Notes under the pieces: model-generated | What the model saw: only the letters and a program-made list of their open reading frames with translations | Told to the model about the DNA's origin: nothing | Database searches by the model: none | From: Natronococcus sp. A-GB7 | Lineage (GTDB): Archaea > Halobacteriota > Halobacteria > Halobacteriales > Natrialbaceae | NCBI RefSeq assembly: GCF_029688865.1 | Contig: NZ_JARUKV010000002.1 | Coordinates: 1-64,000 of the forward strand | Direction of reading: 5' to 3' | Length of the DNA stretch: 64,000 nt | Translations under genes and position numbers: made by a program | Part shown: positions 56,654-61,383 of the stretch, piece by piece | Layout of the letters: every line of letters starts with the position of its first letter | How positions within the stretch are numbered: the first letter of the stretch is position 1

Positions 56654-56873
56654 CGTCGCGGCTCTTCGCTCGGCGGGTAACGTAGCTGTGACGCGGCGCC
56701 GTCGCTCCGAGTCGGTCTACCCGACGCTTCCCCCCGAGTAAGCGTCGTGCGTTCGGGACGCGCGGAAGAACTCGTCCGTCCGACAGGCTCCACTTCGGAC
56801 CGGTTTTGCCGGTTCTCCTCTCCCTACCTGGTTAGGGGCGCTCCATAATATTACGAACGTCCAACATGTGTCT

Positions 56874-57791
56874 ATGTCGCAAGGACATACCCGCAGACGC
56901 GCACTAACGTTGATCGGAGCCACCGGAGCCGGGCTGGTTGCAGCCAGTTTCAGCGGGACGAGCGACGAGCACGGGGGGGACGACGACGATCACGACGACG
57001 ACGATCACGACGACTACGACGACCACGACGAGGAAGCGGAGGTGGCGGAGGTACGGGCAGCCCACCTCTCGCCGGACGCGCCGAACGTCGACGTCAGCGT
57101 CGAGGGCGACACCGTCCTCGAGGACGTCCCGTTCCGCGCCGTGAGCGAGTATCTCGAGCTGCCGGTCGGAGCCGCCAACGTCGCCATCTCAGCGGCGGAG
57201 GATCCGGACACCGTCGTCTTCGACGAGGAGCTCGAACTCGCCGAGGGCGCGTTCACGATCGCCGCGCTGGGCGAACTGAGCGAGGAGAATCAGCCCTTCG
57301 CACCGGCCGTCCTCGAGGACGACGTGAGCGATCCGGGCGAGGACGCCCGAGTTCGCCTCGTCCACGCCTCGCCCGACGCGCCGGCCGTCGACGTCACCGT
57401 CGGTGACGGCGAGACGGTGCTGTTCGAGGACGTCGCCTTCGGCGAGGCAGGCGCGGTCGAAGTGCCCCCGGGTGACTACTGTCTCGAGATCCGACCCGCA
57501 ACCGAGTGCAACGACGGCGACGTCGTCGCAACCTTCGAAGTCAGCCCCGAGGCCGGAAACGTTTACAGCGCCTTCGCGGTCGGCTACCTCGACCCCGACG
57601 CTGCGCCCGCCGACGAACCCTTCGACCTCGAGGTCGTCCTCGACGCCGCACCCGACGACGAGGAAGACGAAATGGACGAGGAGGACTACGACGAAGAAGA
57701 CGACTACGACGATCACGACGAAGAACACGAAGACGAAGACGACTACGACGATCACGACGAAGAACACGAAGACGAAGACGACGACTACTGA
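56874..57791 (+). CDS. DUF4397 domain surface protein with Asp/His-rich repeats
   Basis: The 305-residue protein has a Tat-type signal (HTRRRALTLIGATGAGLVA), a short DDDDHDDDDHDDYDDHDEE cluster (about residues 37-55), two DUF4397 units (VRAAHLSPDAPNVDVSVEG and VRLVHASPDAPAVDVTVGD) and an Asp/Glu/His tail made of two 13-residue units. It is probably exported. The acidic/His stretches could bind divalent metal ions. TATA CATAATATTAC at 56844-56854 is 26 bases upstream; GTG 56868 is an alternative start. Confidence 0.85.
   Translation: MSQGHTRRRALTLIGATGAGLVAASFSGTSDEHGGDDDDHDDDDHDDYDDHDEEAEVAEVRAAHLSPDAPNVDVSVEGDTVLEDVPFRAVSEYLELPVGAANVAISAAEDPDTVVFDEELELAEGAFTIAALGELSEENQPFAPAVLEDDVSDPGEDARVRLVHASPDAPAVDVTVGDGETVLFEDVAFGEAGAVEVPPGDYCLEIRPATECNDGDVVATFEVSPEAGNVYSAFAVGYLDPDAAPADEPFDLEVVLDAAPDDEEDEMDEEDYDEEDDYDDHDEEHEDEDDYDDHDEEHEDEDDDY
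57699..57776 (+). repeat. Two perfect 39-bp tandem copies in the DUF4397 gene
   Basis: Positions 57699-57737 and 57738-57776 are identical 39-bp units coding DDYDDHDEEHEDE. Perfect identity means the duplication is recent or actively maintained. Copy number probably varies among strains. Confidence 0.9.
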
Positions 57792-59718: not shown

Positions 59719-61383
59719 CTACATGCGAGCCCGGAGCCGATCGATCCGGCGCTCGGTCGCGGGATGGGTCCCGAACAGTCCGCGAGCCACGAGGCGTCGC
59801 GTCCGGTCGAAGAATCGATGTTCCTCCCACGGCGGCGGAACGATCGAGAACGCCGTCGTCACGTCCTGCTTCCGGAGATCCGACTCCGGACGGCGCTCGA
59901 GCTCAGTGTCGAGCGTCTCGAGTGCGCTCGCCAGCCCCGCCGGATCGCCGGTGATCGCGACGGCCGCGTCGTCGGCCGCGTACTCCCGGCTGCGGGCGAC
60001 GAACGCGACGGCGGCGCGGCTGACCGCGTTCGTAAGCATCGCCAGGGGCTCGAGGACGGGATTGAACCCGTACCGACCGGTCGCCGTCCGCGCGACGGCG
60101 CCGGGTGCCGCCAGCGCGGTCAGTACGGCCGCGTCGCGGTTCGCAACGTGGGCGAGCTCGTGGGCTACCACGGCCTCGAGCTCCTGGCCCTCGAGCGAGT
60201 TGACGATCCCTCGCGAGAGCACGATCGTCGATGTCGCGGGTCGGTAGCCGACGGCGAGCGCGGTCGGCGCTTGCTGATCCGCGAATCGAAGGTCGGGAGC
60301 TGGAACGTCGGCCTAGCGAGCGAGCCGAGCGACGGTCGCTCGAGGCCCGTCGGGTTCGGGTTCGTTCCCCGTCGCCTCGGGTGGGCTGGAGGCGACATCG
60401 ATCTCGAGCTGCCGAAGAACCGCGGCCTCGCCGTCGAACTCGCCGCGGACCGCGCTGCCGAAGTGGCCGCCGACGAACGCCAGCGCGGCCGCCGCACCGA
60501 CCGCAAGAGCCAGCGTCTCGAGCGCCAGAACCGTCGCCGCCGCGTAGCTCCCGGCGACGAGGACGAGACCGCCCGCCGCGAGCAACCCCGATCGCGGGCC
60601 CGGGGCGCGCTCGAGGCGGGTCGCCAGTCGCCGGGATTCGTCGGCGATACCGTGGTACGTGTCCTCGGACGTTGTCTCGACTTCGCTCCCGTCTCCGTCC
60701 TCCACGTACGCCACGAGACGAGACCGGACGACGTCGAGCGTATCGGGGGCGAGTGCCGCAGCCAGGCCGACCGCGACGAGTCCGACCACGAGCACGACGG
60801 CGAACAGCTCCGAGTACGCGAGGCTCAGGTAGCCGACGGCGAGTACGGCGACGAGCAGTTGATCGCCCGCGGCGCTTCGCTCGAGCCGATCCGTGTCGTC
60901 GCTTCGCGAGCGGACCCAGGCTCGAGCGGCCCAGACGTACGAGATCGTAAGCAGGTAGAAGGCGCCGAACACGACGAGCGCGGCGAAGACGGGTCCGGGG
61001 AGGACGCCGGCCGCGAACGGCAGGACTGCCAGCGCGACCAGCAGCGAGGACAGCAGGAGGACGTACGCGCCCAGCTCGACGACGCCCTCCGCGATCGGGC
61101 CGGGTCGCACCGAATCCGCGTTCTCACGGGCCGTCCGAAGCGATCGAAGAGCCAGTTCGACGGCGAACAGCGAGAGGGCGACGGCGGCGACCGCGAGGAC
61201 CGCCGCGATCGGTGCCGGGAGGACGAACGCGAGGATGTCGACCGCGTACCAGACGAAGCCGGCGACCGGAACGGCGACGAGCACCAGCCCGGCGCCGACG
61301 ACGGCGCCGACCAGCAGGAGACAGAGCGCCGACGCGAGGGCCATACGCGCCCAGAGACCGAACCGGACACGGGTCGAGCTCAC
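59719..61383 (-). pseudogene. M48 family metallopeptidase interrupted by in-frame TAG
   Basis: The N-terminal part (61383-60316, 356 residues) has several membrane helices and ends RATVARLAR. TAG at 60315-60313 follows, and the same frame then continues ADVPAPDLRFADQQAPTALAVGYRPATSTIVLSRGI and the zinc site HELAH with a later REYAADD to the stop at 59719. The family normally has Gln where TAG stands (RLAQQADVPAP), so a CAG to TAG change explains it. As annotated the protease domain is not translated unless the stop is read through. Confidence 0.9.

Follow-up and report, generated by a model that had tools for sequence, protein, structure and literature searches.

The window analysed here (the whole 64,000-nucleotide stretch from Natronococcus sp. 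A-GB7) contains a gene for an M48-type membrane metalloprotease that is interrupted by an in-frame TAG. The question raised by this locus is whether the codon ends the protein, is decoded in at least some molecules, separates two independently translated products, or is an error in the genome sequence, a 4.88 Mb draft assembly of 77 contigs. A literature search found no published report on the disrupted gene.

Results

Layout of the disrupted gene

The elements of the locus, all on the minus strand, are as follows.

59719..61383, minus strand: gene for an M48-type (HtpX-like) membrane metalloprotease, beginning with GTG; 554 codons counting the in-frame TAG, then a terminal TAG; full-length orthologs in 17 Natrialbaceae genomes
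60316..61383, minus strand: upstream part, 356 amino acids; mostly long helices (membrane part) predicted in a low-confidence model
60313..60315, minus strand: in-frame TAG, codon 357; CAG (Gln) in 17/17 full-length orthologs; yields CTAG at 60313-60316
59722..60312, minus strand: downstream part, 197 codons; contains HELAH and REYAADD within the M48 catalytic domain (Pfam PF01435, 4.5e-20)
59719..60222, minus strand: longest internal open reading frame past the TAG, from a GTG at 60222 (codon 388); predicted open reading frame only

The plus strand of the assembly reads CTA at 60313-60315, giving a minus-strand TAG that lies in frame within the protease gene, as the initial annotation had stated. 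Another 197 sense codons follow in the same frame before a second TAG is reached (59719-59721), and the downstream half has neither frameshift nor gap relative to congeners, so that the earlier description of a continuous frame holds. A long open frame by itself means little in this high-GC genome; that this one exceeds chance follows from its protein identity of 81-83% to three congeners, whose genes also begin at this GTG and are preceded by a comparable upstream region.

Membership of the M48 family is indicated by the presence in the disrupted gene of the Pfam M48 domain (PF01435, 76.5 bits against a cut-off of 20.3, with the downstream part alone reaching 4.5e-20), of HExxH and of the third Glu ligand motif; HELAH occupies residues 408-412 and REYAADD residues 466-472. 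A search of Pfam and NCBIfam with the upstream 356 residues alone gave no match, and the AlphaFold model of the protein is poor (mean pLDDT 54.9). Elsewhere in the window, the plus-strand gene at 56868-57791 encodes a 307-residue secreted-type protein with a long, low-complexity C-terminal tail rich in Asp, Glu, His and Tyr and containing repeated DEEHEDEDDYDDH units; a shadow open reading frame lies opposite it.

Orthologs and the site of the stop

A search of 99 related genomes returned 18 full-length matches (51-83% identity), none with an internal stop, and 17 of these, one per genome and all from Natrialbaceae, were aligned. Codon 357 is CAG in all 17 and the Gln column is invariant (in an alignment into which the TAG of the disrupted gene was entered as Q by choice), bearing out the proposal that the stop falls at a conserved Gln position. 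Since every aligned ortholog has CAG, a single C-to-T change (CAG to TAG) would, on sequence comparison, be sufficient to account for the stop, as had been suggested. The TAG is a singleton, a stop being present here in none of the relatives examined, and the sense codon in all 17 orthologs marks it as lineage-specific, which supports a nonsense allele. Two details of the initial annotation require correction: relatives read RLAGQADVP or RLARQADVP at this site, not RLAQQADVP, and the protease domain, described as fully conserved, does retain HELAH and REYAADD but has Ser in place of a Gly, beside the latter motif, that is invariant in 17/17 relatives. Other congeners likewise show single changes at invariant positions.

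This comparison also bears on whether the gene now works as two, one part giving a membrane stub and the other a catalytic fragment with a start of its own, at the GTG at 60222 or by reinitiation after the TAG. An open reading frame of 167 amino acids carrying both HELAH and REYAADD does begin about 30 codons past the TAG; a start at 60222, however, would fall within the strand that a low-confidence model places last in the domain, at the cost of helix 345-357 and two strands from the beginning of the catalytic domain, and the fragment would contain none of the membrane part. It is accordingly unlikely, as judged from the model, that a fragment begun at this GTG would give a folded enzyme. The site is common to no ortholog and there is thus no sign of a selected split, an arrangement that we regard as extremely improbable.

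Constraint on the downstream half

Pairwise dN/dS for the downstream half is 0.20-0.29 between the disrupted gene and three congeners, against 0.16-0.19 among those congeners. Polarised changes comprise four synonymous and three nonsynonymous on the lineage of the disrupted gene versus 15 and 10 in the congeners (Fisher p = 1, on counts without power), and a mixture estimate puts the fraction of the branch that evolved free of constraint anywhere between 0 and 1 when changes are polarised, or between 0 and 0.67 when they are not. There is hence no detectable relaxation of constraint, in agreement with a young mutation, on counts too small to date it. The initial annotation had held that the downstream half still looks under selection: this overstates the data, which do not show selection after the stop, as the low ratio of nonsynonymous to synonymous change is largely a record of the period preceding the mutation, and the counts specific to this lineage lack power. 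The lack of detectable relaxation counts against a nonsense allele in that, although expected of a young mutation, it is equally expected of a sequencing error or of readthrough.

Sequence context and the integrity of the contig

The principal rival explanation is a base-call or consensus error in the assembly, the gene being intact in the organism. The draft state of the assembly (77 contigs) and the absence of relaxation downstream are both in keeping with this, as is the fact that a single substitution is the sole defect of the gene. The change also falls within a palindromic CTAG (60313-60316), generated by the new stop, and this tetranucleotide is avoided by the genome: the window (1-64000) has 14 copies where dinucleotide shuffles predict about 99, a deficit that agrees with the underrepresentation of CTAG in haloarchaea (PMC6471742). 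Such avoidance weakly favours a young site and is silent as to error versus mutation. Three of the 14 sites lie within the first 465 bases of the window.

Open reading frames of the contig were also scanned against a congener (G002), using a codon-position GC filter that removed most of the shadow open reading frames typical of high GC. Over the 270 kb contig the disrupted protease gene is the only real gene found to be truncated relative to this congener, and the occurrence of one clear gene-truncating change in 270 kb argues that the assembly is not error-rich. Substitution errors in short-read consensus sequence are, moreover, rare. An assembly error at this position is, on balance, unlikely, although it is the alternative to which we give most weight.

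Is TAG decoded in this genome?

A further possibility, readthrough or suppression, was also raised by the initial annotation: the TAG may be decoded in some molecules, by a suppressor tRNA, by pyrrolysine insertion or through context-driven readthrough, to yield a full-length protease. The intact frame, the conserved catalytic domain past the stop and the single base change are all compatible with this. Amber suppressor tRNA and pyrrolysine genes, proposed earlier as a check, were searched for: the PylS profile gave a weak match only (29.8 bits, the cut-off being 178), sub-cut-off matches also being obtained in most control genomes, and no CUA anticodon is present among the 44 tRNA genes recovered. 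These 44 include neither tRNA-Trp nor tRNA-Gln-CTG, and the search therefore probably overlooked some tRNAs with introns; a DNA search with tRNA-Gln-TTG revealed no second Gln-like tRNA copy.

The use of TAG elsewhere was surveyed over contig C12, the 270 kb contig containing the gene, and in three large families. TAG terminates 46 of the 154 coding open reading frames of the contig (30%), compared with 48/152 and 21/70 in two congeners. Among the 62 TAG-ended frames comparable with congener G002 (a set that may still include overlapping shadow frames), 61 end within 5 amino acids of the end in the congener, the sole exception being the disrupted protease gene, whose own terminal codon is also TAG. 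Sampled genome-wide, 170 domain matches from the three families contain no in-frame TAG; a single TGA, in a histidine-kinase domain that is split, is the only in-frame stop amongst them. This domain, a histidine-kinase ATPase domain on the minus strand of another contig of the same genome (C22:52505-52827), is broken into two matches that overlap but differ in frame, the TGA lying in one of them, and apparently represents a decayed kinase gene.

Given, over contig C12, a TAG frequency like that of congeners and gene ends that are unchanged, TAG is an ordinary terminator in this genome, and general reassignment of the codon is rejected. Local decoding must also be set against the restriction of the stop to this genome and against the archaeal precedents, demonstrated readthrough in archaea being that of selenocysteine and pyrrolysine (review PMC8211752). 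We consider decoding of this TAG, in favour of which the analysis yielded no evidence, very unlikely. Slighter still is the chance of its narrower form, in which this single amber codon would be read by a suppressor tRNA that is minor or contains an intron and escaped the search, or by virtue of its context, to give a mixture of stub and full-length protease. If true, readthrough would mean amber decoding in haloarchaea without pyrrolysine.

Other M48 genes and tolerance of loss

Five other M48 genes are present in the genome, all without an internal stop, and four of eight congeners gave no match at E <= 1e-100; loss of this protease is therefore plausibly tolerated. One M48 (HtpX-like) gene without an internal stop lies past the end of the window on the minus strand of the same contig (C12:71798-72403), about 11 kb from the disrupted gene.

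Discussion

The locus is probably best explained by a recent nonsense mutation in a dispensable chromosomal gene for an M48 membrane protease, now an incipient pseudogene. A C-to-T change would have turned CAG into TAG at codon 357; translation would then stop at this codon, and the product would be a membrane stub from which the zinc-binding catalytic domain, with both zinc motifs, is missing. The protease would consequently be inactive. Of the options offered by the initial annotation (very recent mutation, readthrough or suppression), recent mutation is thus the best, though the synonymous and nonsynonymous counts cannot date it.

In its protein family the gene resembles other HtpX-like M48 peptidases in its above-cut-off PF01435 match and its HExxH and downstream Glu motifs, and the encoded protein has a sequence match to the solved HtpX homolog 3cqb. 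It differs in its long N-terminal multi-helix part, for which Pfam and NCBIfam hold no match, and the protein falls under the cut-offs of all the NCBIfam HtpX equivalogs. A parallel is offered by methanogenic archaea that read UAG as pyrrolysine, where a conserved domain likewise lies beyond an in-frame UAG; here, however, PylS was not found, nor was a CUA tRNA among the 44 tRNA genes recovered, the protein is not a methylamine methyltransferase, and the stop is not conserved, relatives having Gln.

The closest likeness is to the single-nonsense pseudogene, a common class in prokaryote annotation ('internal stop'), with which this gene shares a reading frame undamaged but for a single internal stop, relatives without the stop, and membership of a family that has paralogs and is patchily distributed. 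Nothing notable sets the present case apart, the disrupted gene showing little or no further decay. The finding is an ordinary one: with no sign of an altered code, its import beyond annotation is small, and the M48 gene should be annotated as disrupted.
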